From contig CAMGZM010000001.1 in assembly GCA_946183145.1 (NCBI GenBank), forward strand, positions 62,001 through 126,000: a stretch of 64,000 nucleotides of DNA, in the 5' to 3' direction. Numbering within the stretch: position 1 is the stretch's first letter; every line of letters starts with the position of its first letter. Source of the DNA: an uncultured Fretibacterium sp. GTDB taxonomy: Bacteria > Synergistota > Synergistia > Synergistales > Aminobacteriaceae. Of this stretch, positions 34,309 to 43,631 are shown in pieces. A model generated the notes under the pieces. The model worked only from the letters and a program-made list of their open reading frames with translations, did no database searches and was not told the DNA's origin. The position numbers were made by a program, and so were the translations under genes.

Positions 34309-34782
34309 CTAATCCTTCCTGATATTTGCCCTCGTTCCGTGAGTAATCGCTAACAGTCTTTCAGGCTCAACCGGGAAAAACGCATGATCAGTCCCGGCAG
34401 CAGCCCACACGATTTTGTGCGTGAACAAATCCCCGTCAACAACTACCCTCAAATCATCATCATATCCCACAGGCGGAACTCCTCCGACATGATACCCGTA
34501 ACGCGAATATACTTCTTCAGGCGGCATCATTCTTGCGCGGTTATGCCCGATAACTTTTGCGGCTGATTTAGCGTCTATCTTGTTCGCTCCGCACATTAAC
34601 GCTATGAACGGCTCTGTTTTGTCCGCAACAAGTATTAAGCTCTTGAGGATTTCAGCGGGAGTAACACCGATTGCGTTTGCGGCATCGTCAACCGTGAATA
34701 TCGTCTTGTCCGTCGTGATAATCTCAATGTCAGATGCTCCGGCGGAGTCTAATGCTTTTCGGACTCGTTCAACTGGATTCAT
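34309..34782 (-). CDS. YbaK/ProX-type aminoacyl-tRNA deacylase
   Basis: 157 residues. The Lys in E-I-L-K-S-L, the central M-C-G-A-N-K-I-D and the final G-x-x-x-P-V-G-Y region match the YbaK/EbsC family. Such enzymes hydrolyse mischarged tRNA (for example Cys-tRNAPro). Its start lies inside the 3' end of the restriction-modification gene (14-base overlap), so it is read on the same transcript. Confidence 0.88.
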   Translation of the reverse strand: MNPVERVRKALDSAGASDIEIITTDKTIFTVDDAANAIGVTPAEILKSLILVADKTEPFIALMCGANKIDAKSAAKVIGHNRARMMPPEEVYSRYGYHVGGVPPVGYDDDLRVVVDGDLFTHKIVWAAAGTDHAFFPVEPERLLAITHGTRANIRKD

Positions 34783-37700
34783 GATGTGATTCCTCCTGTA
34801 TGAGTTTCATTGCTGAATGCTCGTCAGATTCTACAGCGAGTTCAACGGATTTTACTGCGAGGGTGATTAGGCGTTCGGATTCTTTTCGTAGCGTGAATGA
34901 TTCGCGTACATGTTCGGAGATTGATTGCTGTATGTGTGAGTCAATATACGGCATGGGAATTTTGCGGAGTTCGTTTTCTGATATGGCAGATAATATTGTT
35001 CCTGAACACCCGCGCTTCATGAGGCTTTGAATCATCGGGGACTTGAATAGCATTAGCAGAGTCTCGGAGTTATACATGTCAGAGTCAACAACGTAGAATC
35101 CTGTCGAGCATAATGCGCCGTCATATTCGGGAGTAATCAGCGCACAGCTTTGCAGAGAGCCTTCTATTGACGAGATTATTACCTGCCCTGCGTGAACGAG
35201 TCGCCTTGCCCGCGTTGGAAGTTCTGAGCCATCAGCAACAGTTGCGCCCGTAATGTTTCCTGACGCGCCGACATCTGCAAGTTCTATGTACCTGTACTGA
35301 ATCCCTTTGCACGGTGTGAAGTTTGCGCCGTGAATGTTGCATGAAGAGTCTATTGTCGGATTGTCCCGGAGGTGCGCTAAGAGTTCGTCATATTTAGGCA
35401 TGAAGTATTCAGCGTCAATACGTCCGATGCTGAAGACCTGCGAGAATGACACGACAGAAGTATTTGCGTCAGGATGTCGAGGTGTGAAGTGTATCGCGTC
35501 ATTGAGGATTGATTGTGCGCGTGCGTAGAGGGATTCGGAGTCAGCTCTTGCGGTCATGGCCTGGCGAGTTATGCTTTCTATGAGCGAGGCAAATTCATCG
35601 GACATTTTCGGGATTAATATATCTTGAAGCTCAACAAGTTTTACCGCCGGGCGCGTTGTTTTTATTCCCCGTCTTTGTAACTGGTAATAACCGTATTTGC
35701 AATTCAGAAATGTAGACAAAAAATATGGGTTCTCTCTTTCTTTCAGTCTTACCATTGCAACATCAGCACAAATATTAGCTTCTGGCATATCATCGGGGAC
35801 AACAGCACTTCTTCCAAAATAGCCTGTCTTAGCAAATATAACATCACCAGGACGCAAAGCAGATTTCATCAAAAATTCATGTCTTTCTCGCAGAATACGT
35901 TTTACCGTTGATGTATCAATGTATCCTTCTTTCACAAATTCACTCAGAATGAACATAACACCATCATCAAAATATCTTATAATGCCATGATCTCCATCCG
36001 TTATAACTCTTGCTATCTTGCTGAGGGGTTCTGTGCTGCATCTCTGAAGTATATTAGTGGCGTTAATAAATTTTCTGCTGTAATATTCTGCACCGAGCGT
36101 AAAATAATTCTCAAGACGACTCAACATCACTTCACTCACTTCAAGCCCGCTCACCAATTCCCTGTAACGTTCCTCAGAGAAGCGGGCATCACCGAAAAAA
36201 CTTAGCCCCTCCCTTTTCGCAAACTCTATAAACGCCTCCGCTATTCCGTCCTGAGTCAGTCCCTCGTGATTGTACAGGTCATGACTCACAACCGGGTGAA
36301 AATGCGAGTCCCTCAAAATATTTCCCTGAGAGTCGCGGACATAAATCTTTTCGCCGGAATTGTCTTTGCCGGGCTTCTTCATTGTCGCGAAAAACACAGG
36401 GTAATCATCACGGCGCGGGCATAAATCACCGTCCCATTTCTGAACGAGCAGGACAGAAGTCTTTGTGCCTGTGTGAGGCTTGAAGACGTTTTCATGAAGT
36501 CCGATCACCGCCAAAATTCTGCAATGACTCGCAATGAAATCACGTATGTATTTGTCGCTTGAGTTGTTGAAGCGTCCCTGAGGGAGAATTATCGCCATAC
36601 GCCCGCCGGGTTTGAGGAAATGAATATTGCGCTCGATGAAGAGAATATCACGGCCGATTTTTGACGCGTATTTGCCTTTGGAGTCCCTTGCGAGTTCGTA
36701 GCGGTATATGATTTCTTTCTGCTGAATGTCGCCTGCGAAAGGAGGATTCGCCATCACAATATCAAACGTGAAGCTGCTGTAATCCTCTTCATGTTCGCAG
36801 AAGTCCGTGAACCTGAGCCAGCCTTCATCGTAAATTTTCTTCCATGCGCGCGGCTTTGTTGTTTCTTCCCATCGGCCATAATCGAGAGTGTTCAGATGAA
36901 GTACGTTTGTGCGTCCGTCTCCTGCAATAAGGTTTAACGTTCGTGCGACTCTCACAGCTTTTTCGTCAAAGTCAATCGCAAAAACTTTATCCCGAACGTA
37001 ATCTTGACACTCTGCGGGCTTCTCTTCTGCAGTGAACAAATGACTCTGTTCGATTCCTTTCTCCGCAAGAATATTTTTCCACACGTAAAATATTGTATGA
37101 ACGGGGAATCCGCATGACCCTGCCGCAGTGTCAATCATTGACTCGTGCTTCTGAGGGTTGAGCATTCTCACGCACATATCGATAACGTAACGGGGAGTGA
37201 AGAATTGTCCCTTTTCGCCTTTTGCTGACTTGCTCATGAGATATTCAAACGCGTCATCAATCACATCAAGGTTTGAGTTGAAGAGCTTGACTTCCTGAAG
37301 AGCCGAAACACACACGGCCAAGTGAGACGGCGTTAATGATATTGTGTCGTTGTCATTGAAGACTCCCGGCCATATATGCATAGCCTGTTTGAAGAGAGCC
37401 TGAATGTTTGCTTTGAGGTCTGAGTCTGTGTCGCCGTAATTCCTGAACTCAAGAACGCGTGATTTGTCCCGTGTGCTTTTCATTTCGTCAAAAAGTTTCG
37501 TGTATATCAGCTTGAATACTTCCTCGAATACATCGACTCCGGCGTTGGCTAATACCTCGTCTTCCATTTCCTGAATTAATGATGTGAGGGATTTCCTGCT
37601 GTCGCTGAGCCTGTCTTTTGCTTCAAGGTCTGAGATTGTCCATCGTTCATGAAGAATGTCGCGGAGTTTCTGATTTGCTTTTGGGATTTCGGGAATGTTC

Positions 37701-38170
37701 TCGAAATAGTTGGGATCTTTTCGGTGATAGTATTCTTTGCTTTCTCCGTTAGTCCACACTCCTATTATTGCGCCGGAAGCGTTGCAGTATGATTTGAGCT
37801 GTGCTTTTCCCTCGCGTGAGTTCGGCTTTTTGACCTCGACGATAATATATGCTGATGTCGGGTGTTCCTTCTCGAAAATCACAATGTCAGCGCGTTTTGT
37901 CTCACGCCCGAATGATATACCGTATTCGAGCCTGATATTTTCCGGATCATAGCCGTATTCATGAATGAGCTTGTGAACGTATAACTGTCTTACGGCTTCT
38001 TCTGGTGTTAACCGTATTTCCTTCCCGCGTATCAGGCACTTGATGAAGGGGTAAATTTTCCCGCGCTGCTCTTTGGTGTAAATCATTGACTCGATCGCGC
38101 TTCTTGTTTCAGGGCTGAAGAACGAGTCATTATGCGCTGAGTTCCTGAATAATTCTGAGAGTTTGTACAT
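34769..38170 (-). CDS. Single-chain restriction-modification enzyme (nuclease, N6-adenine methylase and two specificity domains)
   Basis: 1133 residues from ATG 38170. Residues about 30-150 resemble the type I R-subunit N-terminal nuclease: D95 in R-A-D-I-V and E112-x-K114 in V-E-V-K-K give a PD-(D/E)xK site. Residues about 200-330 look like an HsdM helical domain. The methylase follows, with motif I D-T-A-A-G-S-C-G-F (about 347-355) and motif IV N-P-P-F (475-478). Two HsdS-like target-recognition domains (about 700-870 and 910-1100) end it. No helicase domain. This is the layout of type IIG/IIB enzymes, which cut beside a bipartite site. It starts 1 base after the nucleotidyltransferase stop. 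Confidence 0.88.
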   Translation of the reverse strand: MYKLSELFRNSAHNDSFFSPETRSAIESMIYTKEQRGKIYPFIKCLIRGKEIRLTPEEAVRQLYVHKLIHEYGYDPENIRLEYGISFGRETKRADIVIFEKEHPTSAYIIVEVKKPNSREGKAQLKSYCNASGAIIGVWTNGESKEYYHRKDPNYFENIPEIPKANQKLRDILHERWTISDLEAKDRLSDSRKSLTSLIQEMEDEVLANAGVDVFEEVFKLIYTKLFDEMKSTRDKSRVLEFRNYGDTDSDLKANIQALFKQAMHIWPGVFNDNDTISLTPSHLAVCVSALQEVKLFNSNLDVIDDAFEYLMSKSAKGEKGQFFTPRYVIDMCVRMLNPQKHESMIDTAAGSCGFPVHTIFYVWKNILAEKGIEQSHLFTAEEKPAECQDYVRDKVFAIDFDEKAVRVARTLNLIAGDGRTNVLHLNTLDYGRWEETTKPRAWKKIYDEGWLRFTDFCEHEEDYSSFTFDIVMANPPFAGDIQQKEIIYRYELARDSKGKYASKIGRDILFIERNIHFLKPGGRMAIILPQGRFNNSSDKYIRDFIASHCRILAVIGLHENVFKPHTGTKTSVLLVQKWDGDLCPRRDDYPVFFATMKKPGKDNSGEKIYVRDSQGNILRDSHFHPVVSHDLYNHEGLTQDGIAEAFIEFAKREGLSFFGDARFSEERYRELVSGLEVSEVMLSRLENYFTLGAEYYSRKFINATNILQRCSTEPLSKIARVITDGDHGIIRYFDDGVMFILSEFVKEGYIDTSTVKRILRERHEFLMKSALRPGDVIFAKTGYFGRSAVVPDDMPEANICADVAMVRLKERENPYFLSTFLNCKYGYYQLQRRGIKTTRPAVKLVELQDILIPKMSDEFASLIESITRQAMTARADSESLYARAQSILNDAIHFTPRHPDANTSVVSFSQVFSIGRIDAEYFMPKYDELLAHLRDNPTIDSSCNIHGANFTPCKGIQYRYIELADVGASGNITGATVADGSELPTRARRLVHAGQVIISSIEGSLQSCALITPEYDGALCSTGFYVVDSDMYNSETLLMLFKSPMIQSLMKRGCSGTILSAISENELRKIPMPYIDSHIQQSISEHVRESFTLRKESERLITLAVKSVELAVESDEHSAMKLIQEESHHESS

Positions 38171-38171
38171 T

Positions 38172-39272
38172 CTATTTCTTTCTGCCGAATATGCTGAAGA
38201 GTTTTTTGATGACCATTTTCCGGCTTGATGTCGTTGCTTTGAATAACCTTTTGAGAACAAAGAACGGGTACAAATATTTATGCCTGTAAATGTGAGGGTT
38301 AAAATATTTCAGTTGCCTTAATGGGATAAATACCTGCCCGAGAAGGTAGCGCAAACGGCTTCCCCCAAAAAAACCATTGATGACATGTTCCGCTTCAGTC
38401 TCAACATATCCGTAACTCCCGGACTCAATAATATACTTGAGCATTTCACGGTTCACTTCATGGGATTCATCACCGCCGAAAAGATACAGCGCGAGATTCC
38501 TCAAATCATGCTCAAAATCAGCAAGATTCATTTTCACTGTCTCACCTGAAATATATTCCCAGTCAAGAGAGTCTGAAAACTTTTTCATGTAAACATATTC
38601 GTCAATCAATGCGCGGAGTCCCGTTCCGCCCTCTGAATAATGCCTGTATGAGTGAGCCGTCATATAGAGATAGAAATCTTCATTGCTGAAATGGTACGTG
38701 TACTTTTTCCCGTCATCGAGAATCATTTTGTCCCTAACATCATAATAGTAATCGCCCAATGCGCTGTTCAGCCATGTCTCCATTAAGCCGCGGTGCATTT
38801 CTACATCCGTAAGAGGCGGTTTCCTGTATACATCGTGATTGTGATTGCAGTAGTCCTCAACAGCAAAGCCGAGTCCCGTCATGATTTTGCGGACATCGTT
38901 AGCATGCGACATGTCGAAAAATATATCAATGTCATTCATCTCACGAAGCCCGAAAGCCGGATAATAATTCTTCATCACAGCACCTTTCATCAGCATGTGC
39001 CATATTCCCGCAGCTTCAAGACTCTCTGAAATCATGCGTAAGTCATTACCGAGTATAACAGCTTTCCTCAGAGCTTTAGCCCTTGCCTGTGTGAAAAGCC
39101 TGTGCTTTATCCCGGCTGATTCAAGCGCGTAATCAACAACCGCCGGAATCATATGCGACTCCGAAAACCTGTAAAGCTCCTCAAAATTCACTCCCTCAAG
39201 GTGTGATTCTTCCGGGATTTTTCCGTTTAACGCGCAGTCCGAAAGATATAACGCAGTTTCCGCAATGCCCAT
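38172..39272 (-). CDS. NTP_transf_5-type nucleotidyltransferase
   Basis: 366 residues. The nucleotidyltransferase signature K-G-A-V-M-K-N-Y-Y ... R-E-M-N-D-I-D-I-F is at about 92-120 and gives the two active-site Asp. The C-terminal stretch H-K-Y-L-Y-P-F-F-V-L-K-R is typical of this uncharacterised family, often found in peptide-modification and exopolysaccharide clusters. Start ATG 39272 has AGGAGG 8 bases upstream and lies inside the end of the peptidase gene. Confidence 0.8.
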   Translation of the reverse strand: MGIAETALYLSDCALNGKIPEESHLEGVNFEELYRFSESHMIPAVVDYALESAGIKHRLFTQARAKALRKAVILGNDLRMISESLEAAGIWHMLMKGAVMKNYYPAFGLREMNDIDIFFDMSHANDVRKIMTGLGFAVEDYCNHNHDVYRKPPLTDVEMHRGLMETWLNSALGDYYYDVRDKMILDDGKKYTYHFSNEDFYLYMTAHSYRHYSEGGTGLRALIDEYVYMKKFSDSLDWEYISGETVKMNLADFEHDLRNLALYLFGGDESHEVNREMLKYIIESGSYGYVETEAEHVINGFFGGSRLRYLLGQVFIPLRQLKYFNPHIYRHKYLYPFFVLKRLFKATTSSRKMVIKKLFSIFGRKK

Positions 39273-39670
39273 GATAATGCCCTCCTCGTGAAAATTCTGA
39301 TTCCTTTTGTGTGAAGTATGATGAACGTGTACAGCCTGTAGCCGCGACTTTCTATGCTGTATTCATGCCCGCCGCGTGTGAAGCCCGTCATTACTCCTAG
39401 AATGTCAGAGTCCTTTATGCCGTATTCATACGTTACGCAGTTATCACCGAGAATGACATAATCATTTTCGCGGACTTCAACAACTCTGTGAAGAACGTAA
39501 TCTTTCGGCGGCCTCTTATACAGAACGACATCACCGGCACGGCATCTTTCAGCCCCTTTGCGTCTCAATGTGAACATGTCTTTTCCCTCACGCAGAAGAG
39601 GCATCATGCTTGTACCCTTGTTGCTGTATGTCAATGTCCCGTTCTCGCTGAGATATTGCTCAATGTTCAC
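39227..39670 (-). CDS. S24/S26-family peptidase without membrane anchor
   Basis: 147 residues. Catalytic Ser21 in G-T-S-M-M-P matches signal peptidase I box B. The expected general base is His61 in Y-V-L-H-R-V-V (as in ER/archaeal-type enzymes) rather than Lys. L-G-D-N-C-V matches the box E G-D-N. No clear N-terminal transmembrane helix, unlike a normal signal peptidase. I chose GTG 39670, which overlaps the kinase stop and has GGGAGG 11 bases upstream; an ATG six codons earlier also exists. Confidence 0.8.
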   Translation of the reverse strand: MNIEQYLSENGTLTYSNKGTSMMPLLREGKDMFTLRRKGAERCRAGDVVLYKRPPKDYVLHRVVEVRENDYVILGDNCVTYEYGIKDSDILGVMTGFTRGGHEYSIESRGYRLYTFIILHTKGIRIFTRRALSWALRKLRYIFRTAR

Positions 39671-40371
39671 TGGCTCATTGCCTCCCATGATACTTTTGCC
39701 GCGTCAGGATTCATGTTGCAGTGAAGCTCGTAGAATCTCACGGAATTTTTCAGGCGGTCAAGGAGAGCCAGAGTCTTTGCGAGCGATGATTTGTCGTACG
39801 GCCTGTATGTCTGGCGGAGCAAAAACGGGTATGCTTTTTCGTGCGTGATTTCCTCAATGTGATTTGACTCGCCTCGTCTGAGAATGCAGACTGCTCTTAA
39901 CGGCGCGTGAATATTATTGCCTAAATTGTGCTTGCCGTTGAAGGGACTCCCGTAAACCTCAGCCGAATCAATTCCGGCGCGAATCATTGGCTTGTCATCG
40001 TTGACCATAACGAGACGTTCACCGAGCAATTTTCGCCACAAAGCCGCGTGTGTTGATTTACCCGTTCCGCTTGGAGCTGCGAATACGTAGCCGAATCCGT
40101 CAACGCTTAACGCAGAGCAGTGAAACAAAAACGAGTCGTAATCGGGCATTCTCTCAGAAATTTTACGGAACACAGCAAGGGCTTCAAGGTATGAATCATC
40201 GCAGAGATCTCCGCCGGGCTGTGAGCGTTCAAACTCTATGTCATCATGTGAAGTTGCAGCGAAAAAATCAGGTTCGCCGCCTGAAACGTAATCACCTGCG
40301 AAAATGTGAAAGCCGTCATATATCGTTGAGACATTGACAGTAACGCCCGCGATTGTGTATGTCCCTGTCAT
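39667..40371 (-). CDS. HPr kinase-like protein (HprK-related)
   Basis: 234 residues. P-loop A-P-S-G-T-G-K-S-T is at 99-107, followed by the V-N-D-D-K-P and Y-G-S-P-F-N-G-K motifs of HprK-like kinases. It lacks the HprK N-terminal domain. Homologues occur in lasso-peptide clusters, where they phosphorylate the peptide, and in the HPr-rel-A system with a PqqD partner. The target here is unknown. Overlaps the PqqD gene by 4 bases. Confidence 0.85.
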   Translation of the reverse strand: MTGTYTIAGVTVNVSTIYDGFHIFAGDYVSGGEPDFFAATSHDDIEFERSQPGGDLCDDSYLEALAVFRKISERMPDYDSFLFHCSALSVDGFGYVFAAPSGTGKSTHAALWRKLLGERLVMVNDDKPMIRAGIDSAEVYGSPFNGKHNLGNNIHAPLRAVCILRRGESNHIEEITHEKAYPFLLRQTYRPYDKSSLAKTLALLDRLKNSVRFYELHCNMNPDAAKVSWEAMSQ

Positions 40372-40628
40372 TCTTCGAGTGCCTTGACCTGACGGAGCGA
40401 GTCGAGAATCTTTTTGACATCACGCGAAATTATTTCTTCGGGCGCGTCATACTCTTTGCATAATGTCTCAATGATTTTTGACTCTGTTACGTCATCTTTG
40501 AGGAGGGATAAAATTTCCCCGAATGTCGCATTGCCTTTGATGATGCCGGAAAATTCTGCGCTTCCTGCCGGGACTAGAAGAGTCTCGCTTTCATTCTGAT
40601 GGATAAGAAATTCATTGCGTAATTTCAT
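40368..40628 (-). CDS. PqqD-family (RRE-like) protein
   Basis: 86 residues from ATG 40628, with AAGGAAG 9 bases upstream. The sequence follows the PqqD pattern: a beta hairpin (L-L-V-P-A-G-S-A-E-F), then helices (F-G-E-I-L-S-L-L and E-I-I-S-R-D-V-K-K-I-L). PqqD-like domains bind leader peptides in many RiPP systems. First gene of the four-gene module; a terminator lies just upstream. Confidence 0.82.
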   Translation of the reverse strand: MKLRNEFLIHQNESETLLVPAGSAEFSGIIKGNATFGEILSLLKDDVTESKIIETLCKEYDAPEEIISRDVKKILDSLRQVKALEE

Positions 40629-40739: not shown

Positions 40740-43631
40740 TCAGTTTTCGCCTCTGTAGGTCTGAGTCGCTTTGCAGTAATAGTACAGTGATGTTACAGCG
40801 TTCTTCATGCCGGTGTATTGTTCGGTGTCATTATTGAGAACGCCATGTACATACGAGAAGGGCGAAATCACTATGTCGAACTCGGTTTTTGCCTTGACGT
40901 GAATCGTGTGGGACTTGTCGAGATCCTGCGCATATATCTGGTCAATCTCAACGTAATATTTTGAGTTATCGCTCGTTAGATTCGGTGTGTATTCTTCCCC
41001 ATCATCAAGTTTTACTGTTACAGAGTCGGGTGCATTGTCCTTATCAGGCGAAAGATATACCGTGAGTTTTGTTGCTGAGTTAAGCTCAAGGTCAAACGCA
41101 ACATCCTTTATGCCTGCACTGCTGTAGTTTCCTTTGTTGACTGCGTATGTATCACCCATTGCAGTTTTCACGGTATTCACTGTGTTGTCATCATAAACTG
41201 TAGCTGCTTTCATTTCCGCGTAGTCAGTGCCGATTATCCATCCGTTATGCGCCGCAAGAGGAATCTGCACATAGTGGCCGTAATCTTTGATAGCATTCAC
41301 GAGGTCTATGAGTGTTTTGTTTTCATCTCCGCTGTATTGTGATAGTGCTGCATTGCAGTAATCACTTGCGCTGTAATTCTGCGAGACCGTTAATGTCTGA
41401 TTCTCTCCGTAATGGAATGTCGCTGTAATTTTCTCGGCCATCTGTATCGAGTTTATGTAGCACGTGAAAATATATGCTCCGCCTTCTCCGGTTGTTGCGC
41501 TGCTTAACTCGAAAGGATTCCCCGTTTTTCCGTTCACCGTGAAATCAACATATGCACCGTCAGTTACGAGTCCTGTATTCGGCACAGTGAGATAGAAATC
41601 GACACCGAGCAATCCCCCGCTGAGCAAGAGCGAATGATTGCCCCATGAAGGAAGCGTATTCCCTCCGCCGTTAATGATGTTGAGCATAGGATCGCAGGTA
41701 ATATTTTCGGGCTTGAGATTTGCGAACCCTGTTATGTTTATGGAGGTGATGCCGGAATTGCCGCTTATGTTCAGCGATGCCAAATTCTTGAAAATCTCTA
41801 TACCTGTGAGATTCGTTATACCTAAATTGCTCAAGTCAAGGGCTGTTGTTCCCGTCTTTTCTGAGTCTGAAAGATAATTGCCGTATTCAGAGATGATATG
41901 TGCGCGTAAATTTGCGTCAGGGAAATTTGATTCGGTTATCGCTGTTCCTGTTGCATCTTCCTGAGTGAGCGTGAAGGCTTTTATACAGGCGTTGCTAGGT
42001 GTTGACCTTGTGATGCCGTCAGTCCATGATGTCGGGAAATTAGTTCCTCCTGCAAAATAACTCTCGCCCGCATTGACTACAGGGTTTGAATAATTGCCTC
42101 CGCTTGAATAATTAACAGCTCTCTCAGTTGCTATATTGTATTGGCTTGTCGTAACCATTTTCACAGCGACCGAGAAATATTCGCCTTTGTCCAGCGCAAC
42201 AGCGTCATCAAGTTTTATGACGTGATACCCTGCATACGTAGCAGTGCCTGTTTTCTTTGCAACGCAATTTTCTGCATTTGTTGCGGGTGAAGATGGTTTT
42301 GTCTGGCCGTGCTTGAAGACGTAAATCTCATATGCTGCGTTATTGTCTGTTGTTACGATTGAGACCTCTGAAAGTTTTTCGTCATGGCCGCTTGCCTTGA
42401 AGATATTAGCCGCCCAGCCTGTATATGTCCCGTCTGTCGCACCATAACCGAAACTCCCGCAATGCCCTAAAGCGTCGTGATAGTATGCGGTCATTCCCTT
42501 CTGCACTGCCTCAGCTACATACGCCGTAACACCGCGAATATACTGCTCGTATGACATCCAGAAATATCCTTTGTCGCCCCATGTATCGCCCCATGAATTT
42601 CGCACAAGCCACGCGCCGTTATTGGTTGGCTGTCCTGTTTCAGGGTTGAAATTTTCCTTGCTGAAATTGTCATCCCATCCAACAATCATTACAGCATGAT
42701 TTGAGATTGTCGTATTTGGGAGATAATATGTGAACGGGCTGTCATCATCTTTCCTGTAGTAGGGTGATGATTCTCCGTCAGAACCGCTTGTTGTTGTCGC
42801 TACTGTCTGTCCTGAATAATAGCTTATCTGAACAGCTCCGTTCTCCGTAACAAGCTGCTTTACTGTGGCTCTGAGAGCTTCTGTTATTTCGTCAAGCTCG
42901 TAAGAATCGTGAAGACGTATAGCAAGCGCATAATCTTCCGGCTGTGTCTTCTCGCCCAGTACAGTATTCATTCCCTCTATTGTGTCCGTGATTCTGGTAT
43001 ACGGCAGATTTGCTTCAAGCGTAGGGCCAGCAAGACGGGACATATACGCAATAGCCTGGTCAGCATTTCCGCCCTGCCCAAAAACCGGGCCGCCTGAGAA
43101 TGAGTCCCTATTCTGCATCGTAAAGGAATGTCCTTCTTTGGGATCTTTGTAGACGAACCACGCCAAATGAACCTCTGACAAATCGACATCAGAACCACTC
43201 AGGAACGTCAAGCCCTTCTTGAGGTAATACGTCTCAACGCCTCCGAGCGCGGCATGTGCCCAGCATGTTCCGTAGCTCCCCTGATTCCTTACAGCAGGGA
43301 GAATAGTACTTGTGCTATCTTCGCGGGGATCATATTTTGCGTCATTGGCAGCACCGACTCTTCTGCTGTCGCTTTTTATGACGGGAGGATTGTTTTTTAG
43401 GTGAGACCTGTCAACAGGACTCGGAACATAACCGCCGGAATATTGTGATGAGTCTGGAGTCCCGCCTACTTTTTCGGGATATGTATTACTCTGATTACCC
43501 GATGGCTTGTAGTTCAAAAACTCTTCGGATAATGGAGCTTCAACGGGCTGTGATTCTTCCGCCAAAGCAGGCCATGAAAATAACGCGCAGAAAATCCCGG
43601 CCATAACAAAAAACGCCGTGTACTTTTTCAT
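40740..43631 (-). CDS. Secreted papain-family (C1A) cysteine protease with lectin-like and LRR-like regions
   Basis: 963 residues. Signal peptide 1-24 (ending A-L-A). The C1A domain has the oxyanion Gln118, catalytic Cys123 (G-T-C-W-A-H), His311 (N-H-A-V-M-I-V-G-W) and Asn344 (N-S-W-G-D). After it comes a beta-rich lectin-like domain (about 385-550). A short segment N-F-P-D-A-N-L-R with LRR-like repeats (about 555-640) follows, then beta-rich modules. The N-F-P-D segment also begins the LRR protein at 50266. Likely a surface or secreted digestive protease. Flanked by terminators on both sides. Confidence 0.9.
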   Translation of the reverse strand: MKKYTAFFVMAGIFCALFSWPALAEESQPVEAPLSEEFLNYKPSGNQSNTYPEKVGGTPDSSQYSGGYVPSPVDRSHLKNNPPVIKSDSRRVGAANDAKYDPREDSTSTILPAVRNQGSYGTCWAHAALGGVETYYLKKGLTFLSGSDVDLSEVHLAWFVYKDPKEGHSFTMQNRDSFSGGPVFGQGGNADQAIAYMSRLAGPTLEANLPYTRITDTIEGMNTVLGEKTQPEDYALAIRLHDSYELDEITEALRATVKQLVTENGAVQISYYSGQTVATTTSGSDGESSPYYRKDDDSPFTYYLPNTTISNHAVMIVGWDDNFSKENFNPETGQPTNNGAWLVRNSWGDTWGDKGYFWMSYEQYIRGVTAYVAEAVQKGMTAYYHDALGHCGSFGYGATDGTYTGWAANIFKASGHDEKLSEVSIVTTDNNAAYEIYVFKHGQTKPSSPATNAENCVAKKTGTATYAGYHVIKLDDAVALDKGEYFSVAVKMVTTSQYNIATERAVNYSSGGNYSNPVVNAGESYFAGGTNFPTSWTDGITRSTPSNACIKAFTLTQEDATGTAITESNFPDANLRAHIISEYGNYLSDSEKTGTTALDLSNLGITNLTGIEIFKNLASLNISGNSGITSINITGFANLKPENITCDPMLNIINGGGNTLPSWGNHSLLLSGGLLGVDFYLTVPNTGLVTDGAYVDFTVNGKTGNPFELSSATTGEGGAYIFTCYINSIQMAEKITATFHYGENQTLTVSQNYSASDYCNAALSQYSGDENKTLIDLVNAIKDYGHYVQIPLAAHNGWIIGTDYAEMKAATVYDDNTVNTVKTAMGDTYAVNKGNYSSAGIKDVAFDLELNSATKLTVYLSPDKDNAPDSVTVKLDDGEEYTPNLTSDNSKYYVEIDQIYAQDLDKSHTIHVKAKTEFDIVISPFSYVHGVLNNDTEQYTGMKNAVTSLYYYCKATQTYRGEN

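Follow-up and report, generated by a model that had tools for sequence, protein, structure and literature searches.

A module related to linear polyphosphorylated peptide biosynthesis in a rumen Synergistota genome, with candidate precursor peptides dispersed behind genes of secreted proteins

The closest described counterpart of the locus analysed here is the biosynthesis of linear polyphosphorylated peptides (LPPs), published in Nat Commun in May 2026 for the lpp cluster of Paenibacillus alginolyticus, a member of the Bacilli (PMC13381572). The cluster comprises the RRE protein LppB, the kinase LppK, the SipW-like leader peptidase LppS, the exporter LppD and the precursor LppA, in the core of which Ser3 becomes multiply phosphorylated; the enzymes act on the peptide, and no effect was seen for the NTP transferase LppN (PMC13381572). 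According to that work, neither the end product nor the biological role of LPPs is known, and the role of the HprK/NTP_transf_5 pair in peptide clusters is open (PMC13381572). The same work calls LPPs restricted to Bacillota and describes their clusters in Bacilli as situated in capsule loci, with the patchy transfer typical of conflict genes, and the words "secreted", "surface" and "lipoprotein" are absent from its main text (PMC13381572). The phosphorylated lasso peptides of the paeninodin/pseudomycoidin type are a second point of comparison, as their clusters share a PqqD-type RRE, an HprK-like kinase, an NTP_transf_5 protein and a [Y/W]xxP-type leader with the present locus.

The window, i.e., the whole stretch of 64,000 nucleotides that was analysed, belongs to a rumen Synergistota genome and carries on its minus strand, from 40628 down to 38172, an operon of four adjoining genes at the coordinates given by the first-pass annotation; they overlap by 4, 22 and 46 bp in this direction. 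The first gene (40368-40628, minus) encodes a discrete RRE, a PqqD-like protein of about 86 aa (PF05402, E=9.3e-10), which is the sole PqqD match in the genome; its reading frame is open from 40685, and the start was placed at the ATG at 40628, because the homologues begin with MKL, which corresponds to this position. It is followed by the genes for an HprK-like peptide kinase of 234 aa (39667-40371, minus), for an anchorless leader peptidase of 153 aa resembling the archaeal/SipW-type signal peptidases (39227-39688, minus), and for a nucleotidyltransferase-like protein of 366 aa of the NTP_transf_5 family (38172-39272, minus; PF14907, E=1.6e-38). The kinase and the NTP_transf_5 protein are likewise each present in a single genome copy. 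Downstream of the module, at 34769-38260, lies an ORF that by eye resembles a DNA methyltransferase/restriction gene in the style of type I; it occupies the same place in two related loci (L019, L020) and is probably a neighbour and not a component of the system.

Upstream, an intrinsic terminator with a 15-pair stem and a T-run (40690-40658, minus) separates the module from the next gene. The number of terminator pattern matches as such was at the chance level (six observed versus 5.8 expected), but this one is far stronger than the five others, and equivalent hairpins are found in three related loci (L019-L021). The terminator that was thought to isolate the four genes is thus real, whereas the isolation is not: the gene beyond it (40740-43631, minus), which encodes a secreted protein with a characteristic C-terminal domain (CTD), is linked to the module, and a homologue or a CTD-sharing protein recurs directly upstream of it in relatives. 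Such a terminator would suit unequal expression of the CTD partner and the enzymes.

The kinase matched the HprK-related models below their cut-offs only. Its AlphaFold2 model, built from 31 homologues (pLDDT 95.4), aligned with PEPCK (Z 12.9, 3.6 A over 213 residues) and with the HprK/P of L. casei, 1kkl (Z 11.8, 2.6 A over 121 residues), so that the modelled fold is that of the HprK/PEPCK type. The motifs APSGTGKSTH (Walker A), NDDKP and GSPFxGK are present, and the residues G102, G104, K105, S106, T107, D125 and D126 are invariant across the 31 homologues. The peptidase was matched below the model cut-offs by TIGR02228 (sigpep_I_arch, E=5e-9) and by the models for Ni-SOD proteases. Its motifs GxSMxP, LHR and GIxD are kept in the homologues together with the predicted triad S27/H67/D93, the spacing of which is the same as that of S29/H68/D93 in LppS (PMC13381572). 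The protein has no N-terminal anchor and is probably a cytosolic leader peptidase, which agrees with the cytosolic substrate proposed at first sight of the sequence. In the NTP_transf_5 protein, the KG[AS] motif and a DxD-type motif are conserved. Both this protein and the peptidase terminate in basic tails that look amphipathic by eye. Fused proteins were found in relatives: a kinase-PqqD fusion of 323 aa in two more distant Synergistota contigs of the genus (L027, L028), and a peptidase-NTP fusion of 517 aa in a Solobacterium MAG (L048); they support a physical coupling of these steps. Two tandem mini-ORFs located between the intact kinase and peptidase genes of one relative (L020, 8233-8654) consist of pieces of the peptidase N-terminus and the kinase C-terminus and are a partial tandem duplication.

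The enzyme module is largely explained by the published LPP machinery, with which it shares a discrete RRE beside the peptidase, an HprK-like kinase, a SipW-like leader peptidase with Ser-His-Asp, an NTP transferase, and the lack of a cyclase. The reading of these genes as a peptide-modification system with a kinase, a transferase and a protease and without a cyclase is therefore borne out, with an RRE in addition, whereas the suggestion that the system was undescribed fails, since the same enzyme set had been published for LPPs (PMC13381572). However, the window module has no MsbA-like ABC transporter, in line with the absence of an ABC exporter noted by the first-pass annotation, and the best homologue of a module exporter elsewhere in the source genome is just 25% identical. 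The candidate precursors of this family (see below) carry the YxxP leader with a Ser about 18-19 residues past the Tyr, as do those of LPPs, but the leader reads ExEVIxFxxEDVIT instead of VLxHQxIxFET (LPP consensus YxxPxVLxHQxIxFETxxS), and the published motif LxHQxIxFET is absent from them. With no exporter and a different precursor motif, the window module was not filed as a strict member of the LPP class. Further differences are the occurrence of the module in Synergistota, Atopobiaceae and Bacteroidales, the dispersal of the precursors behind the genes of CTD proteins, and the lipoproteins with matching tails. From the phosphorylated lasso clusters, it differs in that no lasso cyclase was found and the peptidase is SipW-like and not a B2 cysteine peptidase. 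The comparison that had also been drawn with the HPr-rel-A system, in which an HprK-related kinase likewise goes together with a PqqD-family protein, had to be dropped, the models TIGR04352 and TIGR04353 scoring 12.7 of 200 and 14.1 of 35 bits, i.e., far below the cut-off.

The kinase was found in 14 of the 43 genomes of the source genus and was absent from the 19 further genera of the family that were sampled, and the sole match outside the genus in a phylum-wide search of 151 genomes was distant. Complete neighbourhoods in the genus keep all four genes together. Scanning a single genome for each species gave 80 loci, with 306 relatives as the overall total; their carriers are rumen and gut Clostridia, Erysipelotrichia, Atopobiaceae, Bacteroidales and Synergistaceae. 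Over 79 loci, the recurrent set consisted of the kinase, the RRE, the peptidase, the NTP transferase and an ABC exporter, the latter in 36 of them; a radical SAM enzyme occurred near the kinase in seven, and no further gene family in more than four. The exporter is absent from most loci of the genus and present in L028, where it follows the peptidase gene, and in many clostridial loci. The four-gene set is not a chance cluster, since it recurs in the genus neighbourhoods and in most of the 79 loci, over several phyla; neither of the two refuting outcomes named in the first-pass annotation was seen, as the homologues co-occur and the active-site residues are conserved. These occurrences would take the enzyme set into three or more phyla outside Bacillota. 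In the kinase tree, the Synergistota sequences fall into separate groups nested inside Clostridia; this takes three or more changes and indicates repeated transfer into Synergistota.

Upstream of the kinase in relatives, short ORFs of 33-50 aa were found whose products share the consensus MKxxYxxPExEVIxFxxEDVITTSG followed by a short variable tail, so that the conserved small ORF sought in other genomes exists as a family of short YxxP peptides. Altogether, 94 distinct precursor peptides were collected, mostly of 33-70 aa and a few of them longer, with the overall consensus MKxxYxxPExEVIxFxxEDVITxS and a variable tail; the E position is invariant, and Y, D, I and S are nearly so. The leader, YxxPx[ML], resembles the RRE motif of lasso and LPP precursors, and the near-invariant Ser lies at the border of leader and core. 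Tail motifs of the [LM]Px[IV] kind are found in 20 of 92 cores versus 2.3 in shuffled cores. A text search of the literature for the peptide motif did not find it. The occurrence of the precursors follows that of the kinase: by profile search, they were detected in 13 of the 14 kinase-positive genomes of the genus and in one of the 29 kinase-negative ones (Fisher p of about 5e-9), with a marginal E=0.099 for this sole match, and in a repeat with 100 Ruminococcaceae genomes, six of the eight whose kinase match was strong (E below 1e-60) had precursors, as against none of the 92 others. The earlier statement that there was no visible precursor is thus correct for the window and incorrect for the genome: the family model has no match over the window, and its minus strand from 37.9 to 46.5 kb holds no family-like small ORF with a plausible ribosome site beside the module, while eight precursors are encoded elsewhere in the source genome.

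The gene at 40740-43631 encodes a protein of 963 aa with a signal peptide, a papain-like C1 protease (PF00112, 1.6e-18), a lectin-like domain (PF18560, 2.3e-29), LRR (PF23952, 4.5e-9) and the CTD (40740-41651, minus). The C-terminal 300 aa are found again on secreted proteins that have nothing else in common and are encoded 5' of the module in relatives; the CTD proteins end in a conserved LYxYYxATxxYR segment. The CTD had no significant match in Pfam and NCBIfam. Its AlphaFold2 model (pLDDT 91.5, pTM 0.87) consists of two repeats of a beta-sandwich with helices, and a known fold that would give it a function was rejected, as the matches were of the general Ig-like kind; the top one, with a single domain of a toxin structure (Z 8.1 over 81 residues), is uninformative at such length. 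The domain is found in 11 of the 14 kinase-positive genomes of the genus, i.e., in all but three, and in none of the 29 kinase-negative ones (Fisher p of about 6e-8), and in Ruminococcaceae in four of the eight genomes with a strong kinase and in two of the 92 others. The precursor genes lie mostly 25-140 bp 3' of genes for large secreted proteins with this double Ig-like domain. In the genus, 39 of the 50 precursors stand behind a CTD gene of the same strand, with a median gap of 47 bp and a chance expectation of about 0.0008 per peptide; the remaining 11, and many of the clostridial ones, have no adjoining CTD gene. The source genome contains 15 CTD matches, which together with its eight precursors are spread over several contigs; as some of the matches are pieces of one gene, there are closer to twelve CTD genes. 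Given one kinase, one PqqD protein and one NTP_transf_5 protein against eight precursors, the module is best read as a single central modification set that serves precursors dispersed around the genome.

In Clostridia, the genes for the CTD protein and the peptide usually come first, followed by a hairpin and then by the genes for the lipoprotein, kinase, RRE, peptidase, ABC exporter and NTP transferase. Hairpins 3' of the peptide gene, equivalent to the terminator of the window, were seen in L028 of the source genus and in L030, L072, L082, L097 and L107. The clostridial lipoprotein is composed of a signal peptide or anchor, a stalk of low complexity rich in T, P and E, and a tail such as ELPFVPx that resembles the peptide core of its own cassette. 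Thus, the tail and the core read KPIELPLVPLR and EPIELPLVPLR in R. flavefaciens (L200), DDGLEWSPLTPIN and DDGLNWSPLTPI in L199, PEGELLDPFE and PEGKQVDPFAG in L073, and HHYEGEEDIIG and HGYGGEEDELND in L192. Over 17 hand-gathered cassettes, the cognate tails outscored permuted ones with p of at most 5e-5, and with the R. flavefaciens cassettes left out of this hand-gathered set, the permutation p was about 0.001 or less. No stalked lipoprotein was seen beside the Synergistota cassettes.

Since the precursors are dispersed behind CTD-protein genes, the products most likely serve as companions of these surface proteins, by binding, tethering or maturing them, and the locus is accordingly read, with a probability of about 0.7, as an LPP-like RiPP system whose phosphorylated peptides accompany such proteins. 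The PqqD-like RRE would bind the YxxP leader of the short precursors, the HprK-like kinase would phosphorylate the Ser of EDVITxS, which is near-invariant and lies where leader and core meet, and the SipW-like peptidase would remove the leader by a cut near the T of EDVIT; these three steps are likely by homology to the tested LPP enzymes and by the conserved residues. The phosphate may receive a further group from the NTP_transf_5 enzyme, and an exporter would move the peptide out of the cell, where it may act with the CTD protein by binding, tethering or maturing it. The gene anatomy, the conserved catalytic residues, the kinase fold, the co-occurrence, the adjacency and the tail matching are what was observed; the chemistry on these particular peptides, their export and the binding to the CTD are inferred. 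In Clostridia, the core-like tail of the stalked lipoprotein would put the same ligand on display at the membrane. A wider and rather tentative proposal is a peptide-tag system of display or maturation common to several phyla, in which central enzymes would make phosphorylated, possibly further decorated companion peptides, the CTD would recognise its cognate tail, and the clostridial lipoprotein bearing the same tail would tether the protein to the membrane. If true, such a display would be comparable to that of cohesin and dockerin, but with an enzymatically made ligand. The companion-peptide reading would define an unannotated C-terminal domain on surface proteins of gut and rumen bacteria and give LPP-type peptides a candidate partner and testable predictions, through secreted proteins that share a domain and are served by one enzyme set. 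The dispersed architecture is undescribed as far as the searched literature shows, which included few subscription papers and preprints.

The alternative that survives best, although it is unlikely, takes the LPP-like peptides as independent signals, antimicrobials or capsule-related factors, and the link to the CTD as co-expression or the CTD protein as a sensor, immunity or delivery factor. It would fit the capsule loci and conflict-type transfer of the clusters in Bacilli (PMC13381572), the repeated transfer seen in the kinase tree, and two loci (L023, L026) with tandem precursors and no CTD protein nearby. However, operons of bacteriocins or pheromones are not usually laid out with a single peptide following each of numerous unrelated secreted proteins, and the lipoprotein tails resemble the peptide cores cassette by cassette. 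That the CTD proteins are themselves the substrates, with small proteins docking in trans and the kinase or transferase modifying the C-terminus of the CTD protein, is far less probable still: their conserved terminal segment and the window with its four closest relatives, all of which keep a CTD gene by the module with no precursor alongside, speak for it, but the CTD proteins have export signals and no YxxP leader, whereas the precursors bear the Ser and the leader that fit the enzymes, and the LPP enzymes modify a peptide (PMC13381572). A degenerate lasso cluster that lost its cyclase, suggested by the kinase, NTP transferase and PqqD protein of paeninodin-type clusters, is scarcely tenable, since the source genome offers as a cyclase (asparagine-synthetase-like, PF00733) just a 21-bit match in an ORF of 267 aa, no B2 (transglutaminase-like) peptidase family recurs near the kinase in the 79 loci, where the exporter and the radical SAM enzyme are the only additional families above four, and the module is not decaying, as the same catalytic residues and operon structure are kept from phylum to phylum.

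Within the peptide family, the cores are diverse. Cys-rich cores were observed in L063, L074, L088 and L209 (e.g., EDIIFASECCECVIEQLE), in the first three of these close to a radical SAM enzyme, and may represent a branch of this family in which thioethers are formed. Of the peptides of the source genus (L151, L156, L159, L161 and others), about half end in Phe or Tyr, as in SLFNLF, SSWF and AKYY, unlike most clostridial ones, and these ends of the Synergistota peptides are possibly linked to the outer membrane. In Kandleria vitulina (L089), a precursor-like ORF of more than 100 aa has a core rich in Gly, Tyr, Asn and Ser, so that the core length varies widely, as it does for LPP precursors.
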